From positions 1-64,000 of the forward strand of contig JAJZYT010000007.1 in the NCBI GenBank assembly GCA_021797915.1: DNA of 64,000 nucleotides, given 5' to 3'. This document shows, in pieces, positions 4,732-27,523 of the stretch. Each line of letters starts with the position of its first letter. Position 1 is the first letter of the stretch. This DNA comes from Thermoplasmata archaeon. Its GTDB lineage: Archaea > Thermoplasmatota > Thermoplasmata > Thermoplasmatales > GCA-001856825. Position numbers and translations under genes: made by a program. The notes under the pieces are model-generated. The model was not told where the DNA came from, did no database searches, and saw only the letters and a list, made by a program, of their open reading frames with translations.

Positions 4732-7700
4732 ATGGGAAAGATATTGAGAATTGCTGGACCAGTCGTTATTGCGGAAGATATTGAGAATGCAAAGATGTAC
4801 GATGTCGTCAGAGTCGGAGAACTGGGGCTCCTTGGAGAGATCATCGGCATGGAGGCAGATAAGTCGACCATCCAGGTCTACGAAGATACGAGCGGTATCA
4901 AACCCGGAGAGAATGTTGAGTCGACGGGAAAGCCCCTGTCGGTCGTTCTGGCGCCGGGATTGCTCTCATCAATCTATGATGGAGTTCAGAGGCCCCTCGA
5001 TGTTATAAGGGCTCAGGGAGGGGATTTCATAAAAAGGGGGATTTATCCGACACCGGTGGATATGAAGAAAAAATGGAAATTCAATCCAACCGTCAAGAAG
5101 GGAGACAAGGTGTCTGCAGGAGATATAGTCGGCATAGTGAAGGAAACTTCGCTGATAGACCACAGAATAATGGTACCTCTTGGTATCGAAGGAACGATTG
5201 AAACGATTGAAGAGGGAGAGTTCACTCCACTACAAACAGTAGGTACTGTTTTGTCAAAGTCCGGAATCAAAGAAATTCCGTTGGGTCAGGAATGGCCAGT
5301 GCGTCTACCGAGACCCGTCAAGAGCAAACTCCCTCCAGAGATTCCGCTGGTTACGGGGCAAAGGGTTATAGACTCGTTCTTCCCCGTCGCAAAGGGAGGA
5401 ACTGTAGCGGTCCCCGGACCCTTCGGGTCAGGAAAGTGCGTGACAGGAGATACGCCGGTGCTCTTGGGCAATGGAACCCTAATAAAGATAGAAGACCTGT
5501 ATAAGAAGTACGAAAAAACATCGAGCAAGATCATAGATAAGGATGGAGAATACCTTGAACTTGTTCAACCGATAGACCTGTTTTCATACAAAGGAAACAA
5601 TATAGTCAAAAGCAGATCTAAATTAATATTCAGAGGCAAGAGTGAGAGTGTCTTTAAGATCAGAACTCGAACTGGAAGGGAAGTCAGAATAACTCCTGTT
5701 CATAAGTTATTCAAAGTTAACGAAAGAGGAAAAATAGAGGAGACTATGGCCAAAGACCTATCTCTTGGAAACTATATCTTATCGGCCAAAAAAATTGCCA
5801 TCAATAACCAAGATTCAGAGATCGATTTGTACAGTCTACCCGAAGTCCGAGTCCTGGATGAGGATATCAGAAAGAACGTATCGGAATTGTTGAAAAGAGC
5901 TTCATCAGAAAACATCAGAATTGAACTCCCGAAGAATGTACGGTACAGTTTGACAAGAGCTACAAAATCCGTTGCTCCAAAACTGAAGTGGGTAAAGATC
6001 ATTTATGAGACTATGGGGTTGACTGCTCCCCTACCTAGAGCTCTGATCGGGGATAGACGAAGCTCTACTGTAACTATCCCATCCAAAGTCACCAAAGAAC
6101 TGGCCGAATTCATCGGCTATTATGCCTCTGAAGGTTACATCAGGGGAGACGAAACGGTGGTCTTTACGAATTCCGACAAGTACCTGCTAGAAAGGTTCTC
6201 AGAACTTACATCTCTTGTCTTTGGACTGGATTCCAAGCTAGGACTACAGCAAGATAAGACTCCGAACGTCTTGGTACACAGTTCCGTACTGGTAAAATTC
6301 TTGGACTCACTTGAAGTAGGCAGGACAGCGTCAACCAAACAAATTCCAAACATTTTGTTGAAATCTAGCCAGGGAATTCTGAATGCATTCCTCGAAGCCT
6401 ATTTTATGGGGGAAGGATCATTCAGCAACGGGGAAGTCGAACTTTCAACTGCGAGCTTTCAACTAAGAAACCAGTTGTCCTATCTCTTGACTAGACTTGG
6501 AGTGATCCATACCTTAGGAACCAGAACGATTGAGGAAAAAACGTACTATAGGATATTTGTAAGGAGCATTGTCAATCTGAAGGAGTTTTCATCTATTTTC
6601 TCCAAGAATCTCGCAAAGATTTCATCGATTGCAAAATACGTCAATTCAAAGAGACGCGGCTTTGATTCAATCGATATTGCCCCAGTTTCAAAAGAATACA
6701 TGGCGGAAATGTACAGGAACACTACTTATTCAAAGCTGCTTAAGAACGGAATGGAGATTTATGACTACATAGGGAACAATGAAAACATGAGCATGAATAA
6801 ACTTACAAATTTCATGCAGATAGTGGAAGAAGCGAATCCTCAATTCCCAGAGGTTGATAATTCAATAACTGCCTCATCCGAGTCCGTCTACAGCGATGAG
6901 ATTTCAAGTATTGAAAGGGAGAATGGGCCAGTATGGGTGTATGATGTATCGGTTCCGGATGATGGACAGAATTTTGTTGGTGGGTATGGAGGAATCATAC
7001 TGCATAACACCGTAGTTCAACAACAGCTTGCGAAATGGTCCGATGCAGATGTTATAATATACACCGCATGTGGAGAGAGAGGAAACGAAGCCACGGAAGT
7101 GTTGACAGAATTTCCTAGATTGACGGACCCAAAGACAGGGAAGCCCCTGATGGAGAGGACGACCCTGATAGCAAACACTTCAAATATGCCTGTGGCGGCA
7201 AGGGAGGCCAGCATATATACCGGTATTACCCTTGCAGAGTACTTCAGGGATATGGGCTATGATGTGGGACTGATGGCCGACAGTACTTCTAGGTGGGCAG
7301 AGGCCCTTAGAGAAATTTCTGGGAGACTTGAAGAAATGCCCGGAGAAGAAGGTTACCCTGCATATCTCGGAAGAAGGATCGCGGAATTCTACGAAAGAGC
7401 AGGCAATGCCAGAGTCGTATCGAGCGATCAAAGAAGGGGATCTATTACCGTAATCGGGGCGGTATCGCCTCCTGGAGGGGACACTTCGGAACCGGTTTCC
7501 CAAAACACTTTGAGAGTCACCAGAGTCTTCTGGGCTCTCGACGCATCACTGGCGCAGCGAAGACATTTTCCATCGATAAACTGGTTAAACAGTTATTCGC
7601 TGTATTCCCAAGAATTGAGCAAGTGGTTCAACAAGAACGTTTCGGAGGATTGGTACTCTGCATATCAAAAGAGCATGACCATTCTGGAAAAAGAGGCGGA

Positions 7701-8058
7701 ACTGCAAGAAGTCGCACAACTAGTTGGGTACGATGCCCTTCCTGAGAACGAAAAGGAGGTACTAGATATTGCAAAGTCTCTCAGGGAAGACTTCCTCCAG
7801 CAGAGTGCATATGACGAGGTAGATACATACTGCTCTTTGAAGAAGCAATACCTGATGCTCAAATCCATCCTTGCCATGGACGAAATGGAGAAATATGCAG
7901 TGACAAAGGGGATGACAGTCTCAGAATTGGATTCGCTCGCATTCAAAGAGAAGATCTCAAGATTCAAGGAAGTGAAGGAAAGTGAAATTGACAGTTACTA
8001 CGGTGCTCTTATCAAAGAGATGGAGTCTGAAATCAAGGGAAGGGCTGATAAGCAATGA
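4732..8058 (+). CDS. atpA: A/V-type ATP synthase catalytic subunit A, interrupted by an intein
   Basis: The 1108-residue precursor contains a normal ~584-residue catalytic A subunit split in its P-loop: GPFGSGK ends the N-extein (residue 235) and [10 protein letters not shown] begins the C-extein (residue 760). After splicing the Walker A motif GPFGSGKT is restored. The C-extein carries the expected [17 protein letters not shown] and GAVSPPGGD motifs. The subunit hydrolyses or makes ATP at the A/B interface of the head. The insertion point between Lys and Thr is the one known for Thermoplasma and Pyrococcus VMA inteins. Because function needs splicing, the intein must still self-excise. The stop overlaps the atpB ATG (ATGA). 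Confidence 0.97.
5437..7008 (+). mobile_element. AtpA intein with LAGLIDADG homing endonuclease (524 residues)
   Basis: In-frame insertion encoding residues 236-759. It begins with Cys in block A ([13 protein letters not shown]), has block [15 protein letters not shown] with the Thr and His needed for the N-S shift, and ends with block [13 protein letters not shown]...GGIILHN followed by Thr as +1 nucleophile. The middle holds two dodecapeptide motifs, [13 protein letters not shown] (about residue 456) and [15 protein letters not shown] (about 550), each keeping its acidic residue. That suggests a possibly active endonuclease. Full-length size contrasts with the roughly 170-190 residue mini-inteins known at this site in Thermoplasma. 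By eye the segment is richer in A+T than its exteins. Confidence 0.95.
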
Positions 8059-20070: not shown

Positions 20071-23000
20071 GTGGACTTGATGGATTCAATGAGCAGAATA
20101 AAGGTGCTGAAGAACTCCTTAACAAACATGAGCACTGAGACGAAGACTGGAATTATCCTTGCGATAACATTCTTCTTCTCCCTGTTTCTGAGTTTGTACT
20201 TCGTTATCGGTCCTTCGGTAAAGGCGCAGTACGCTGTTTCCGGAGGTTCTGATGCATACTACAACATGAGAATTGTTCAGTACATACTGTCCACCCATCA
20301 TCAGTTATTGTTCGATCCTAGTCTCAATTTTCCAATCGGTCTTGAGAACCCGAGACCGCCGTTATTCCACTGGCTGATAGTCCTGTTAGGCTATGCATTC
20401 TCCCCATTCCTTGGAGGGGTGTTCAAGTCTACCATGACCATGTTCATTGCTAGCACAGCAATAGGAGGAGCGTTCATCGTTTTCCCTACCTACTATCTTG
20501 GAAAGGAATTGTTCGGGTACAAGGTTGGATTGTTGGCGGCTGTACTTGTGGCTATGTCTCCACTGACCCTTATGAAGAGCATCGGGACTATCGGGCTCTT
20601 CGATATTTACACGGCACTGTTTGGATTGATGTTCATATATTTCTTCCTTCGCGCTGTCAATACTTTCAAATTCGATGCTCCTGACATGCCAATAGTCAAG
20701 AGCATAGTTCCATCCATAAGAAGCAATCCAATTTCAGTTATCTACGCGTTGCTAGCAGGAGTTTCCCTAGCTGCATCGCTACTCACCTGGGTAGGCTCAA
20801 TATCGCTGATGCTAATACTCGTGGGAGCTTCGGTATTACAACTGGCAATCTTTGCAATCAAGAAAAAGAACTCACTCGGAATATTCGTCTCAAATCTCTT
20901 CTTTGGTTCGGCATTCATCATAGCTTTCCCATGGTATTATGTCGCACACTTCATCCCGATCAGGTTCGACTACCCATTAATGATGTGGGGTATCCTGCTT
21001 CTTGTGTCCATATATTTCCTTTTCTTACAGAAGAGACCGTGGTTGTTGTCCATCGGACTTTTCATCGTTCTCGCAGCAGCTGGAATTGCATTGCTTTACA
21101 AATTTGATAACACCATCCTTAAATCGATACTTTCCGGACAGCACTACTTCGTCAAGAACAAGATATACGATACGATTGCTGAAGCCCAGGCACTTCCCTT
21201 GGGAGAGGACCTCCTGGAATTCGGTGCTTTTACTTTCTTCGCCTCTTTCATAGGCCTCGCATACCTGGTCTACAAGTGGATAAGAACTGCCACATTCAAT
21301 ATGACTCTGGCTATCCTCTACTTCGGCGGCATCATTGTCATAAGCATGATAGCTTCAAAGTTCCTTTACTTCGGTGCTACTGCAGCTTCAATACTTACAG
21401 GCTACATCGTTGTCAGGGCTTTCGAGCTACTGTCGTTCAAAGAGGCAGTCGACAAGTCGAAGGGAAGATCCATTAAGACTGCTCTTAGGAGAGAGTTCAA
21501 ATTTGCCCATTATGCAGCCATACTCATCGTAGTCTTCCTCCTTATCGTTCCAACAACATTCTACGCTGTCGATTCAGCCATTCCATACAACAACAAGACT
21601 TCCTATGATCGCCAGCTTTACAACGATACCCCTAACTTCCTGAAACCTGCAAACTATTCTGCCCCGTACTATCTGGGGGCGTTCGGCGCAGCCATGGCTA
21701 CTCCACAACAGCCGTGGAACAGGGCACTAGTGTGGTTCCAGAACCAGGATGCTAACCAGTCGCCTAACCAACGTCCCGCTTTCATATCCTGGTGGGACTA
21801 TGGTTTCCAGACGCTGGAACAGGGGAACCATCCTGTAATGGCCGATAACTTCCAGGACGGAGTCTATCCTGCCGCCCAGATACTGCTGGCCCAGAACGAA
21901 AGTGAAATGCTCTCCGTGATGATTACTCAGATGCTCTACAATTACACGGTAACGGGCAACTTTAACAATTCGCCTATTCTGCCTCTCCTGAATGATTACC
22001 TCGGTCAAAATGGCACAAACCTTGTAATGAGCTACATGGCTAATCCGAGCAACTCACATCAGGATGGAATGATAGCACAGATCAACGCAAACCCTTCCTA
22101 CTATGGTCAACACCAGTCAATTCAGAGAGGAGATGCTGTTTACATAATAATGGAACATTTCCTGACGAACACATATTCACTTGCTACTCTGATCAACCTG
22201 TACTCAGCCGTTGAGCAATTCATGAGCAAGTACATGAGTTACGTAGCGGTGGACTACAGCCTCTTCCCGTTCAATGGAACGAATACGGGAATATTCTACG
22301 CTCCTTCGTATCTAGGTGATTTCCCGTACGTCAATGCATCTGGGGAAATAGTTCCGACAGAATTTTACAACATAAACGTCACGGACACTTCCGGCAACAC
22401 TTACGCAATACAGAATTTCCCATCTGGAGATACAGCGGCCAGCTACAACATCTCATATACGCCACAGTTCTACAACACTACTATCTACAGAGGGTTCATC
22501 GGATACCCACCGTCCACAATTGGATCTACCAACGGTATACCTGGGTACTCTAGCGGCCTGAGTTCGTATCCCGCCATGCAGGGATGGGGGATGTCCAACT
22601 TTGAAGTTGCCTACAAGACAGTTTTGTGGAATCCATATACAGATTATCAGAACCATTCCTCTGCATGGAAAGAGGTTTCCCTAGAGCAGGGATACCAATA
22701 TCTGAAGAACCACGACGGCACAACGGATCTATTCCCGCCGTCCTATATCCTATCAAGTGACGTGGTTTTCCTGCAGTACTACCCCGGTGCAATCATCAGT
22801 GGTAGAGTGTATGACAATAGCGGGCAACCTGTTCAGGGAGCAAGAGTAACAGTGACAGACCAGTACGGAATCCCACACGAAACCGTCCTGACGAATTCTA
22901 CAGGATATTACTCAATCTATGCAGTTGCAGGGAACGATACCATCACCTATTCCACTGGAGCATACAACCAGCTGTACATGGTCGGAAGCAAGACTCTGGG

Positions 23001-26000
23001 ATACTACAACGTCACGATCTCCAATGCTCAGGCAGATAGGTTGAGCTACAACAACTATGGGCCGACCTGGAATATCACACACAATCTGGTTATCAACTCA
23101 ACAGACGTCAATGGTCTTGCATTTCTGAACATCGCTAAGATCAGCACATTCACTAATCCCGACCAACCAATAAATGGAACGGTCAAATTTTACAACCTAA
23201 CATACAACAGGGCCTACTACACCACTACATCACCAAATGGAACATACCACTTCTCAAACGTCGCTCCATACAGCTACGAAATTTCCGTATACACGGAAGG
23301 GAAATGGTATAACAACATCTCCTCTGTCACTGTCTCGGATTCCACCGTTTCACATGACATCCCCATGACGTACGGGACGTTGAACGCCACGCTTGCAGGC
23401 GGGAACTCAATCTCTCCTGGTGCAAATATAACCTTCAGTAGAGGGAATTATAGCAAGACATACAATCTCACCAAGCCTGCACAGCTATTTGAGCTGCCTC
23501 CGGGAGTGTTCAATGTCAGCGCAACTAGCTCCGGACAATGGGATAATTTCACGACAAGAGTGACAAACAATACGACCACTCGTCTGGATCTATCGTTCTC
23601 CAGAACGTACAAAATCACTTTCATCACTGAGGTCGATGGTCACGTTGTAAGTGCACCCATTCAAATCAACAACGGTTCGGGTAATCTGAGTACTCAGACA
23701 GTGCTGACAAATTCTCAGGGCATCGGATATTACAGTTCACCAGTCTCCACCAATACATTCTATACGGATATTCTCTTCGATGGCTCATACTACTCTGCTT
23801 CGGGGATCTTGAACGTTTCTGGGGCGAAGACTGTTTTACTTAACCTTCTGAGGTCTTATCTTGTAACGGGCCAGTACACAGTTAGTAATACAACCCAGAG
23901 CTACACACACATCTCAATCACCGGAAGCAATACTCTTGTCAGCCTTTACGGCAACAACACAGGTCACTTCGCAATCTATCTGCCTCCAGGCGACTATAGC
24001 GTGGTGACGCACTCGCAATATAACGCTTCACTCTACGTCGCATCCTTGTACTTCACGCTGGGTGACCAAACCCAGTACCTGAACCTTAAAGGAAATCTAG
24101 GACAGCAGCTGGATGGGACAGTCACAAGCAATGGTACGACGGTAAAAGGTCTTCTGACTACCCAGATGGGAAGTGGTCCGTATTACGACTCGTTCGTTGG
24201 ATCCAACGGTTCATACTCAATATACCTCTATGATGGAGCGAGTTTGAGCAGCACCGGCTTCATTTCTCCGGGTTATACCGTACAGTCCTCTTCACCAACC
24301 AATATTGAACTTCAGGCTCTGCCGGTGAATGTTTCCGTCTATGCGTCGTACTCCGGAAGCGTTCCAATCAATCTCTATCTGAATGGCACACAGGATTACG
24401 TGATTTCGGGCACTCACTACTTCAACCTCACAATGTTACCAGGAAACTATTCCATGACTTTCTCTCATCCAGGGACGGGTGTCACTTCCTCCCAGAATAT
24501 CATTACTGTTGGTCCTGGGGCTTCGCCTCAAGGCTTTACCGCTAGCCTGTCAGTGATGGCCAGATTGAATGTCGACCCGGTCCAGGAGGTCTATGTCTTC
24601 AGTAATGGTACTCTCGTATCCACAACGCTAAACACCACACTGCCGGTAGGTACCTATACGATCTATGCTTATAGCGGGACAACTGCAGCACTCGAAAAGA
24701 TATACCTAACAAAAGACACGAACATCTCACTGAATTTTAAGACGGCCTATAACGTCACCCTTTCTGCTTCTCCGTCGGGTAACGTCAACATAGGTTCGTC
24801 GTCCGGAAATGTGAGCTGGGGGGGCTCCATTCTTCTGCCAAAAGGAACTTATTCCTTTACCCTTGAAAAGAACTTCAACACCTCCTACATCTATTATGCC
24901 TCCACTACAAGTTACATTTCTTCCCCACAATCCATCACACTCAAGGGTGTACTTGTTGAAGCGCTTTCCAACGTTTCTATGAACTTTACTTATGGTGGAT
25001 CAACACTCAACGCAGGAACATATTACATCCAGGGACCAAAGAACGTGACAGGTATGGTGGGTTCTGAAACGATATCATTACCCCGAGGAAACTACTCCAT
25101 CTACGTGACCTCTGGCAATCTCGCATATTTCGGCGGGTTCGATCTCAAGAGCACGGGCCTCAACTTGAACATAGCCCTACATAAGGCGTATCCCCTTAAC
25201 TATGGAACATACCTGAACAATTCATCATATTCAGGGATGGTTTCGATCAAGAGCGATGCACCTTATTATCTCCATTCATCGGGAATCATAAATCTGCCTA
25301 ACGGCACTTACACATTCAGCGCCACCACGACCTATTCGAACTACGGGTATCTGGACAACTATTCGATCAACCAGAATGTAAAAGTGTCGGGTATAAGCTC
25401 TGCCACGCTAGCCTTCAAGCTAAACCTGATTGTGAAGGCATCATTCTATGCGGAATCGGGTCAACCGCTTCTCTCTGCGGGCCAGTCTTATACCTTCCCG
25501 CTCCTAATAACGAACCACGCAAATGTCCCCTTGAAATTCACGATCGGTAATTCGTCGACATTCTACGTAAGCGGCAATGCAATAACGCTGCTACCGAACA
25601 CTTCAGGGGAGACCAACGTAACGATCAAGATTCCATCTGGTGCGACCGCCGGCTCACAGAGCGTCGATGTTAGGGTCTATTTCGGAAACACGTTCCAGAA
25701 TGTCCAAGTCAATTTCACGGTAAATAAAGTTCAGGACATAACTGCAAAGTTGAGCAACAGCACCGGCAAGGTCGTTGGAAATGTGCTGGAGATCCCTCTG
25801 ACAATATACAACACTGGGAACGTACTGACCGCAATAAATGCATCGATCCTCGATCAAGGACTGTTGACCTCGAATGGCATAATGGCGACCTTCAACAATT
25901 CTGGAAACTTCACCACTTACCTTGCATCAGGCAGAAACAACACGACGTACATCTTCATCAATTCTACCTCAGGAAAATCACTGGCTGGTCAGGAAATTTC

Positions 26001-26211
26001 CGTGCTGATAAGCTATGGAAACACCACAAAGATCGTCACAGTCACGCTTGCAACTCCGCAGCTGAAGCTGAGCACCGGGACCGGAACTGGACATGACCTT
26101 TCCCCGTACTCTCACCTCACCCAAGACTATTACATCTACGCTTTCTCTGCCTTCATCGTGCTCGCAATGGTAGCGGTAATGTTGATATTCAGAAGGAGGT
26201 TCAGATCGTGA
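20071..26211 (+). CDS. aglB: Giant AglB/STT3-type oligosaccharyltransferase with long extracellular C-terminal region
   Basis: A 2046-residue membrane protein. Residues ~25-510 contain about 12-13 hydrophobic helices of the GT-C fold, with the acidic loop motif GGSDAYYNMR near residue 60. The signature WWDYG lies at 574-578, the peptide-sequon binding site of oligosaccharyltransferases, which move a lipid-linked glycan to Asn of surface proteins. From ~900 an extracellular region of about 1100 residues follows. It begins with a carboxypeptidase-regulatory-like repeat (SGRVYDNSGQPVQGARVTV) and is rich in Asn-X-Ser/Thr. It ends in a helix and RRRFRS tail. The extension roughly doubles the usual length. 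The start is GTG 20071 or ATG 20080. Confidence 0.92.
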   Translation: MDLMDSMSRIKVLKNSLTNMSTETKTGIILAITFFFSLFLSLYFVIGPSVKAQYAVSGGSDAYYNMRIVQYILSTHHQLLFDPSLNFPIGLENPRPPLFHWLIVLLGYAFSPFLGGVFKSTMTMFIASTAIGGAFIVFPTYYLGKELFGYKVGLLAAVLVAMSPLTLMKSIGTIGLFDIYTALFGLMFIYFFLRAVNTFKFDAPDMPIVKSIVPSIRSNPISVIYALLAGVSLAASLLTWVGSISLMLILVGASVLQLAIFAIKKKNSLGIFVSNLFFGSAFIIAFPWYYVAHFIPIRFDYPLMMWGILLLVSIYFLFLQKRPWLLSIGLFIVLAAAGIALLYKFDNTILKSILSGQHYFVKNKIYDTIAEAQALPLGEDLLEFGAFTFFASFIGLAYLVYKWIRTATFNMTLAILYFGGIIVISMIASKFLYFGATAASILTGYIVVRAFELLSFKEAVDKSKGRSIKTALRREFKFAHYAAILIVVFLLIVPTTFYAVDSAIPYNNKTSYDRQLYNDTPNFLKPANYSAPYYLGAFGAAMATPQQPWNRALVWFQNQDANQSPNQRPAFISWWDYGFQTLEQGNHPVMADNFQDGVYPAAQILLAQNESEMLSVMITQMLYNYTVTGNFNNSPILPLLNDYLGQNGTNLVMSYMANPSNSHQDGMIAQINANPSYYGQHQSIQRGDAVYIIMEHFLTNTYSLATLINLYSAVEQFMSKYMSYVAVDYSLFPFNGTNTGIFYAPSYLGDFPYVNASGEIVPTEFYNINVTDTSGNTYAIQNFPSGDTAASYNISYTPQFYNTTIYRGFIGYPPSTIGSTNGIPGYSSGLSSYPAMQGWGMSNFEVAYKTVLWNPYTDYQNHSSAWKEVSLEQGYQYLKNHDGTTDLFPPSYILSSDVVFLQYYPGAIISGRVYDNSGQPVQGARVTVTDQYGIPHETVLTNSTGYYSIYAVAGNDTITYSTGAYNQLYMVGSKTLGYYNVTISNAQADRLSYNNYGPTWNITHNLVINSTDVNGLAFLNIAKISTFTNPDQPINGTVKFYNLTYNRAYYTTTSPNGTYHFSNVAPYSYEISVYTEGKWYNNISSVTVSDSTVSHDIPMTYGTLNATLAGGNSISPGANITFSRGNYSKTYNLTKPAQLFELPPGVFNVSATSSGQWDNFTTRVTNNTTTRLDLSFSRTYKITFITEVDGHVVSAPIQINNGSGNLSTQTVLTNSQGIGYYSSPVSTNTFYTDILFDGSYYSASGILNVSGAKTVLLNLLRSYLVTGQYTVSNTTQSYTHISITGSNTLVSLYGNNTGHFAIYLPPGDYSVVTHSQYNASLYVASLYFTLGDQTQYLNLKGNLGQQLDGTVTSNGTTVKGLLTTQMGSGPYYDSFVGSNGSYSIYLYDGASLSSTGFISPGYTVQSSSPTNIELQALPVNVSVYASYSGSVPINLYLNGTQDYVISGTHYFNLTMLPGNYSMTFSHPGTGVTSSQNIITVGPGASPQGFTASLSVMARLNVDPVQEVYVFSNGTLVSTTLNTTLPVGTYTIYAYSGTTAALEKIYLTKDTNISLNFKTAYNVTLSASPSGNVNIGSSSGNVSWGGSILLPKGTYSFTLEKNFNTSYIYYASTTSYISSPQSITLKGVLVEALSNVSMNFTYGGSTLNAGTYYIQGPKNVTGMVGSETISLPRGNYSIYVTSGNLAYFGGFDLKSTGLNLNIALHKAYPLNYGTYLNNSSYSGMVSIKSDAPYYLHSSGIINLPNGTYTFSATTTYSNYGYLDNYSINQNVKVSGISSATLAFKLNLIVKASFYAESGQPLLSAGQSYTFPLLITNHANVPLKFTIGNSSTFYVSGNAITLLPNTSGETNVTIKIPSGATAGSQSVDVRVYFGNTFQNVQVNFTVNKVQDITAKLSNSTGKVVGNVLEIPLTIYNTGNVLTAINASILDQGLLTSNGIMATFNNSGNFTTYLASGRNNTTYIFINSTSGKSLAGQEISVLISYGNTTKIVTVTLATPQLKLSTGTGTGHDLSPYSHLTQDYYIYAFSAFIVLAMVAVMLIFRRRFRS

Positions 26212-26975
26212 GAACATTCATTGTGAGCCTGATAATTATCGCTCTTATTGCTGGTTCAGTAATAGCCGTGGGTGCGAATGCCACCAATCAAACCACAACC
26301 GGTCCGGTGACAGTCACAGGTCCTTCATCGGTTGCAATCAGCTCAAACTTCACTTATAGCATTAACGTGCAGCAGATCTTCAAGAACTACTCGATAACGA
26401 TGATCATCTCCGGGTACAACCTGACTGGTGCATCCCCTATATCTCCCACGTACAGGACCGACATCAGGGCTGGTCCTACAGTTTTCAATGTCACTGCACC
26501 TTCGGTTGAAACAACTATGAGACTCCTGTTCCAGGTTACTGGTTACATGACAAACGGACAGATCTTCGTTTACAACATGACATCGAAAGTCACAGTAGAG
26601 CAATACACAACACTCAAAGCAACCATCAACAACACTTCCGACTTCAACCTGACTGCGATCAGCGTGACATTCAATGTCAACGGGAAATATGTAGGGAGTG
26701 AATTGGTGAACGTTTCCAGCCATTCCACGAAGAACATTTCATACAAATGGGTATCGGGAGTACTCCCTACTGGGGTCTATACCGTTTCTATCATTCTCAA
26801 CAACAGCATAGCAAATCTTCAGAACGGAAACTCCTATACATTCCAGATCCAATCAGGGAACCCATACGTGATCTACATCTACATCGGGATCATCGCTTTC
26901 TTCGCAATCATCATCGCAGTTCTCTTCATCGCAAGCTACTACGCACGTAAGAGAAGACCAAAGTGGAAGAAGTGA
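26208..26975 (+). CDS. Secreted, C-terminally anchored envelope protein coupled to aglB
   Basis: A 255-residue protein with a signal peptide-like N-terminus (MRTFIVSLIIIALIAGSVIA), an extracellular beta-rich region with many Asn-X-Ser/Thr sites, and a C-terminal helix followed by RKRRPKWKK inside. GTG 26208 overlaps the aglB stop (GTGA), so it is co-translated and likely works with AglB or the same surface layer. The beta domain resembles the Ig-like NPCBM/CARDB style repeats in the AglB tail. The family is not recognised. Its 3' end overlaps the convergent next gene by 37 bases. Confidence 0.8.
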   Translation: MRTFIVSLIIIALIAGSVIAVGANATNQTTTGPVTVTGPSSVAISSNFTYSINVQQIFKNYSITMIISGYNLTGASPISPTYRTDIRAGPTVFNVTAPSVETTMRLLFQVTGYMTNGQIFVYNMTSKVTVEQYTTLKATINNTSDFNLTAISVTFNVNGKYVGSELVNVSSHSTKNISYKWVSGVLPTGVYTVSIILNNSIANLQNGNSYTFQIQSGNPYVIYIYIGIIAFFAIIIAVLFIASYYARKRRPKWKK

Positions 26976-27523
26976 TCAGAGAGGATATCGTCGCTCAGGG
27001 CAATGTTGATCGCGGAACCAAAATCCTCTCCCCTCTTTATAGTCCTAGAACTTCCGCTCTCATCAACTATCTGCAATCTGAAGTCCACCAAGCTCCGGAT
27101 GATCTGGTTCCTGTATCTCCTGTCCCCGTTACCTACCTTAATCAAAAAGCTGCTGAACTCGCACTCTCTTCGGACCTTGGAAACGTAGTGTCTTATCTCC
27201 CCGACGTCGTAGATGCTGCGCTTGTCGATAACCACATTATTTGCCAGCGTTGCAACCCCTGGGGTAGGACCCGGGTCTATGCCAACAACTATTTTTTCAG
27301 AGTTCTTTGAACGAACCAGCTGTTTCAACCTGAATTCATCTACCCCTTTCGTTTGGAATACGTTTCTTCCCCTGAGCTCCATGTCTGTGAAAACTACGTC
27401 GAATCCGGTGAAATTGTCTTCTGGTCGCAGAGATATGAAGGGCTCATTCATGCCCTTGAGCAGAGTCAGTAGTCTGTTATAAACCCTGAAATCCTTTGCC
27501 ATGACTCCTAACTTCAACGACAA
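26939..27523 (-). CDS. Conserved archaeal protein with RuvC/RNase H-like motif
   Basis: A 194-residue protein. The central VVGIDPGPTPGVATL matches the first strand and Asp of RuvC/RNase H-like folds (GIDPG.T.G). Later acidic residues (DESGSS, GEDFGSAINIALSDD) could complete an active site. The N-terminal 75 residues form a small alpha/beta domain. An exact family or substrate cannot be named. The start is TTG 27523 or ATG 27502; a TATA-like ATATTTTTAA lies near 27540-27550. The gene converges on and overlaps the envelope-protein gene. Confidence 0.65.
   Translation of the reverse strand: MSLKLGVMAKDFRVYNRLLTLLKGMNEPFISLRPEDNFTGFDVVFTDMELRGRNVFQTKGVDEFRLKQLVRSKNSEKIVVGIDPGPTPGVATLANNVVIDKRSIYDVGEIRHYVSKVRRECEFSSFLIKVGNGDRRYRNQIIRSLVDFRLQIVDESGSSRTIKRGEDFGSAINIALSDDILSDHFFHFGLLLRA

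Follow-up and report, generated by a model that had tools for sequence, protein, structure and literature searches.

The window (the whole stretch of 64,000 nucleotides analysed, from contig JAJZYT010000007.1 of a Thermoplasmata archaeon) encodes an archaeal oligosaccharyltransferase (OST), AglB, of 2046 residues, raising the question of what the additional length represents and whether the enzyme acts alone. An earlier note on this DNA had given the usual size of AglB as about 800-1000 residues, which agrees with the 754-1054 aa of six characterised AglBs (PMC5131992), enzymes that are described as single-subunit (PMC5131992, PMC3703281). The giant form with a membrane anchor of its own, also claimed there, is borne out by an intact frame, about 12 beta-sandwich domains between residues ~905 and 2000, and a C-terminal helix. 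The features of the gene are as follows.

20071..26211, + strand: aglB (STT3/GT66 oligosaccharyltransferase), 2046 aa, single open frame, listed start GTG
20251..20253, + strand: Asp61, first metal/LLO-binding Asp (SGGSDAYYNMR), invariant (one gap)
21172..21183, + strand: TIAE, residues 368-371, TIXE-type loop motif, Glu371 invariant class-wide
21790..21804, + strand: WWDYG catalytic motif, residues 574-578, invariant in 62/62 class-level sequences
22771..26094, + strand: ectodomain array, residues 901-2008, about 12 Ig-like/beta-sandwich domains, 55 sequons
22789..23019, + strand: D1 (907-983), first ectodomain beta-sandwich, CarboxypepD_reg (profile match, conservation, model)
23968..25845, + strand: central array, residues about 1300-1925, missing through a natural deletion from Acidiplasma aeolicum and two related MAGs
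26122..26205, + strand: C-terminal transmembrane helix of AglB, residues 2018-2045, with basic tail

The frame has no internal stops; its start is the GTG as listed, the exact position being putative. Residues 60-337 match PF02516 (STT3) at 44.2 bits (gathering cut-off 24.5), residues 547-628, around WWDYG, match the C-terminal domains of solved archaeal OSTs (3vgp and 3vu0), and residues 909-966 match PF13620 (CarboxypepD_reg) at 42.4 bits (cut-off 32.3). aglB is the sole STT3 gene found in the assembly. Elsewhere in the window, positions 4732-8058 (+) hold an A-type ATP synthase subunit A gene with an in-frame intein carrying splicing and LAGLIDADG domains.

With the AglBs of Archaeoglobus, Pyrococcus, Haloferax and Methanococcus (GT66) the protein shares a polytopic STT3 region, the first-Asp motif, TIXE, WWDYG and an extracytoplasmic catalytic domain. 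It differs from the characterised enzymes in its ~1100 extra residues, its C-terminal transmembrane (TM) helix, a coupled companion gene and a score of 188.9 bits against TIGR04154 (archaeo_STT3, archaeosortase A system-associated), below the curated cut-off of 450. The catalytic residues of WWDYG, the first Asp and TIXE are kept, Glu371 in all 62 class-level sequences, and transfer of glycan to N-x-S/T is predicted. A second DxD motif (residues 178-180, window 20602-20610) is degenerate or shifted across the class, column 178 holding D (32), H (25) or L (5) and the +2 residue being non-acidic (180 is mostly P or F), in a region where the alignment may be off. Also, the segment D728...I741FYAP745 (window 22252-22305) is conserved class-wide, with Ile at 741 in 60 of 62 sequences. 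It is apparently a DK-type motif with an insertion and Ile replacing Lys, an assignment made by eye without a structure, and may constitute a third type of Ser/Thr pocket.

Giant size is normal for AglB throughout the class Thermoplasmata and is not peculiar to this genome. Within the order, every one of the 31 full-length relatives measures 2033-2120 aa and is collinear and almost gap-free in the columns of the window's protein. In the class, an STT3 match was found in 190 of 200 genomes (a set that overlaps in part with that of the order), most of the intact frames listed being of about 2050-2440 aa. The earlier note took the length for an anomaly and named an ordinary family trait as what would overturn this; as the relatives share the length, an ordinary family trait is what it is. 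Class members with an AglB match include I-plasma, DHVE2/Aciduliprofundum, whose MAGs carry the same long form, Methanomassiliicoccales, Lutacidiplasma and Acidiplasma.

Over the wider phylum Thermoplasmatota, AglB lengths span from about 900 (~920 aa) to more than 3200 aa. Sister lineages (L181-L186) have frames of about 3000-3280 aa with no companion gene of the kind described below (ORF2) adjacent, and some genomes (L195/L196, L197/L198, L219/L220) each hold a canonical AglB of ~930-1000 aa, above the TIGR04154 cut-off, together with a divergent one of 1130-1360 aa. The aglB of E-plasma (L054/L179) is in two pieces, frames of 1232 and 893 aa with an overlap of ~38 nt, followed by an intact ORF2; this is either an apparent frameshift or a true split. 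The literature searched, with partial coverage, contained no mention of long AglBs or of a range from ~900 to >3000 aa; the available text of a 2013 study reports an AglB homologue of I-plasma with no mention there of its size (PMC3750248).

A structure prediction for residues 885-2046 that drew on 61 relatives (mean pLDDT 83.7) shows nothing but beta domains, 96 strands in ~12 sandwiches, up to the terminal helix 2018-2045. Column conservation in D1 (mean 0.68 over 901-950, with an invariant DQYGIPH-type block) is at the level of the catalytic core, and beyond D1 falls to 0.34-0.46. In Acidiplasma aeolicum (L174) and two MAGs (L145 and L154), AglB is 1425-1442 aa long. A natural deletion of ~620 residues has removed roughly residues 1300-1925 of the window's AglB and left D1-D4, the last domain, the TM helix and ORF2 in place. 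From a D1 conserved like the core and a middle that is variable and deletable, we infer a role for each part: D1 belongs to the functional enzyme, the middle of the array acts as a spacer whose length can vary, and the return to the membrane is required.

As for the origin of the array, generic Ig-like domain arrays are among the matches shown in a fold search (Foldseek) with its model. Among PDB sequences, the array profile best matches NOMO2 of the BOS complex in the ER multipass translocon (E=3.8e-24), a protein of ~1200 residues of Ig-like domains with one C-terminal TM helix at the membrane where proteins are inserted. However, these matches pile up on the same CarboxypepD_reg-type repeats (profile 159-355 only) and are not collinear, and NOMO2 is absent from the Foldseek matches shown for the array. 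Homology to a NOMO-like protein fused to an OST was ruled out, the signal being repeated matches of one domain type, and the likeness is kept as an analogy only. A copy of another surface protein was also rejected as a source, the array profile finding no match among other proteins in 400 kb of I-plasma. Archaeal surface proteins with CARDB or CarboxypepD_reg Ig-like domains are built from the same types of domain as the array and ORF2; here these are fused to, or coupled with, an OST.

The companion gene lies immediately downstream of aglB.

26195..26200, + strand: GGAGGT, Shine-Dalgarno-like (SD-like) site for ORF2, within the 3' end of aglB
26208..26975, + strand: ORF2, proposed OST companion subunit, 255 aa, GTG start overlapping the aglB stop (GTGA)
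26577..26831, + strand: CARDB-like Ig domain of ORF2, residues 124-208 (profile matches and model)
26868..26951, + strand: transmembrane helix of ORF2, residues 221-248 (predicted structure)
26958..26972, + strand: basic C-terminal tail of ORF2, PKWKK, residues 251-255 (conservation)

ORF2 is predicted (pLDDT 87.9) to have a signal helix at its N-terminus, followed by two Ig-like sandwiches, a helix that spans the membrane and a short tail of basic character. The tail reads PKW[KR] in 41 of 59 distinct members, and all 59 have at least 3 K/R within the last 12 residues. PF07705 (CARDB) scores 18.5 against the window's ORF2 (gathering score 22.7), and across the family 58 of 60 members match it at E<=0.1 (best 4.9e-12). 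For ORF2, the matches shown by Foldseek include transglutaminase, macroglobulin and antibody Ig pairs; neither OST48, ribophorin nor Ost3/6, by sequence or fold, is among the matches shown, and an OST48- or TRAP-like subunit was rejected on these grounds. Convergent to ORF2 lies a gene (26939-27523, -) for a 194-aa protein of no clear family, with a weak DUF460 match, whose position is conserved in most of the order.

A homologue of ORF2 stands directly downstream of aglB in 31 of 31 full-length order relatives, and, wherever class loci extend far enough downstream, it follows the long aglB in essentially every one, those of Methanomassiliicoccales among them (these class-locus counts include duplicates). 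The few class loci without a full-length match are near a contig edge or have a frameshift-broken aglB. Among 82 distinct, deduplicated junctions, 63 have a 4-nt overlap and 6 a 1-nt overlap; of these 69 overlapping junctions, 65 carry a suitably spaced SD-like site, as judged with a loose pattern. The upstream neighbour of aglB is on the same strand in merely 15 of 34 loci. Searches of Thermoplasmata genomes gave a strong ORF2 match (E ~1e-21 or better) in 26 of 26 sampled, each time on the contig of the STT3 match and separated from it by one gene-length. Co-translation of aglB and ORF2 is strongly suggested by this arrangement.

Outside the class, ORF2 was found neither beside AglBs of about 900-1430 aa nor beside the ~3000-aa AglBs of other Thermoplasmatota lineages. 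The CARDB and TM half of ORF2 forms the C-terminus of AglB itself (2400-2750 aa) in three lineages outside the class (E=1e-14 in L204, 5e-9 in L209 and about 1e-5 in L200). Genes fused in one lineage and coupled in another are the usual sign of physical partnership, but the fusion match is modest, CARDB is common, and the fused segment could be a generic CARDB domain.

The reading we favour, with some confidence, is that the giant archaeal OST of the class is made as a two-gene unit, AglB and ORF2 being bound to each other in the membrane. The two proteins would be made together by translational coupling and would associate as a two-subunit OST, in which D1 would pack against and buttress the catalytic domain and the variable middle of the array would serve as a glycosylated spacer arm carrying the enzyme, or exported substrates, through a thick surface protein layer. 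The arm would return to the membrane with ORF2 beside it, basic tail facing the cytoplasm, where ORF2 might brace the returning C-terminal helix, recruit substrates or engage a cytoplasmic partner through its tail. The array would itself carry N-glycans, as seems to hold for the other exported proteins here. More tentatively, at chances we put a little under even, Thermoplasmata would have a heteromeric OST of giant AglB and an obligate, translationally coupled Ig-like subunit that arose independently of the eukaryotic accessory subunits and scaffolds the handling of surface substrates. The likeness to eukaryotic OST, in which STT3 works with OST48/Wbp1, ribophorins and others, would lie in a catalytic STT3 with single-pass beta-sandwich partners; as ORF2 has no sequence match to that complex, nor an OST subunit among the Foldseek matches shown, the resemblance is one of layout only.

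In favour of the two-subunit proposal are the length and collinearity of AglB across order and class; the conserved D1 and variable middle, with a natural deletion that leaves D1-D4, the last domain, the TM helix and ORF2 untouched; the class-wide downstream position of ORF2 with its near-fixed overlap and SD-like sites; the fusion of CARDB and TM to AglB in sister lineages; the lack of ORF2 beside the ~900-1430 aa AglBs outside the class; and sequon enrichment in both proteins. The conserved, coupled ORF2 argues against a single-subunit OST in Thermoplasmata. Weighing against the proposal, conserved coupling can equally pair enzymes with substrates or assembly factors. In addition, the ~3000-aa AglBs without an adjacent ORF2 imply that a long array does not require it, and the PDB matches of ORF2 are generic Ig pairs, with no OST subunit among those shown. 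Characterised AglB and PglB also work alone (PMC4287180), and since archaeal OST is described as single-subunit (PMC3703281, PMC4287180), the proposal is a clear departure.

It is unlikely, in our estimation, that ORF2 is instead a co-expressed but independent exported protein, for instance a dedicated substrate or a folding chaperone of AglB, with AglB a single-subunit enzyme bearing an accessory spacer. Such independence would suit the single-subunit nature of the characterised AglBs (PMC3703281) and the commonness of CARDB-type Ig domains in archaeal surface proteins, as well as the many weaker CARDB matches in sister-lineage genomes. It accounts poorly for one dedicated family at one locus class-wide, a near-fixed 4-nt overlap, a conserved basic cytoplasmic tail and the existence of a fused version in sister lineages.

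The earlier note had further suggested that the enzyme may be part of the cell surface coat and its own substrate. The whole AglB has 71 N-x-S/T sequons, 55 of them in residues 901-2008, where composition-preserving shuffles give 25.0 (sd 4.1) and the reversed motif occurs 25 times, a 2.2-fold enrichment. Sequons exceed each protein's own expectation in 31 of 31 full-length order relatives and in 60 of 61 AglBs of the class (median 2.1-fold), and the 59 ORF2 members have 490 against 199 expected. As a control, 400 kb of a same-genus I-plasma genome was surveyed with crude ORF and TM calls: exported proteins are 1.6-1.7-fold enriched (1.69 for those with 1-3 TMs), and proteins without a predicted TM, taken as cytoplasmic, stand at 0.91 of expectation. 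No protein in the sample has more sequons than AglB and its I-plasma ortholog, owing to their length; at 3.5 per 100 aa, density is ordinary beside the 3-6 of other exported proteins. A density special to AglB is thereby ruled out. Of the self-substrate suggestion, N-glycosylation of AglB stands as very probable and its singularity falls: as exported proteins share the enrichment, the ectodomain is probably glycosylated like them and not marked out as coat.

That the ectodomain is nevertheless a structural part of the coat, the enzyme doubling as a coat glycoprotein anchored at both ends and ORF2 being another coat protein of the same operon, we regard as quite doubtful. Its ~12 Ig-like domains, sequon density and TM anchor would be fitting, as would the sequon richness of ORF2. 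Two Thermoplasmatales species, according to the available text of one report, have no S-layer and carry on their exterior a dense protein layer, unordered and about 20 nm thick, the proteins of the layer not being identified in that text (PMC12448462); S-layer-like genes in I-plasma are reported in what is available of the 2013 study (PMC3750248). However, AglB's sequon density is ordinary for an exported protein, the same-genus contig has other sequon-rich surface proteins of 900-1400 aa, and the middle of the array is absent in Acidiplasma. Also, abundance is typical of coat proteins but not normally of an OST, and the same long AglB occurs in MAGs of DHVE2/Aciduliprofundum, a group that has an S-layer. 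AglB is a possible coat component, with nothing here favouring coat over an enzyme with a long arm.

A sequencing or assembly artefact, or a frameshift fusion of two genes, which the earlier note had named as something that would overturn its claim, is excluded, as the same frame at the same length recurs across tens of independent assemblies, with several single-contig genomes among them, and the one relative with an apparent frameshift (E-plasma) is split by it.

Returning to the two-subunit reading, what is new here is the near-constant linkage of aglB to a small, unnamed gene for a membrane protein that may be the enzyme's partner; no paper on a companion gene of AglB or on a two-subunit archaeal OST was found in the literature searched, with partial coverage. 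ORF2 is a candidate for the first accessory subunit of an archaeal OST, near-invariant across a class that includes both gut methanogens and extreme acidophiles, and, if the reading is correct, the complex would provide a second case of a one-protein enzyme gaining subunits. AglB is also a defined membrane protein, rich in sequons, to which studies of the surface of archaea that lack an S-layer can turn.
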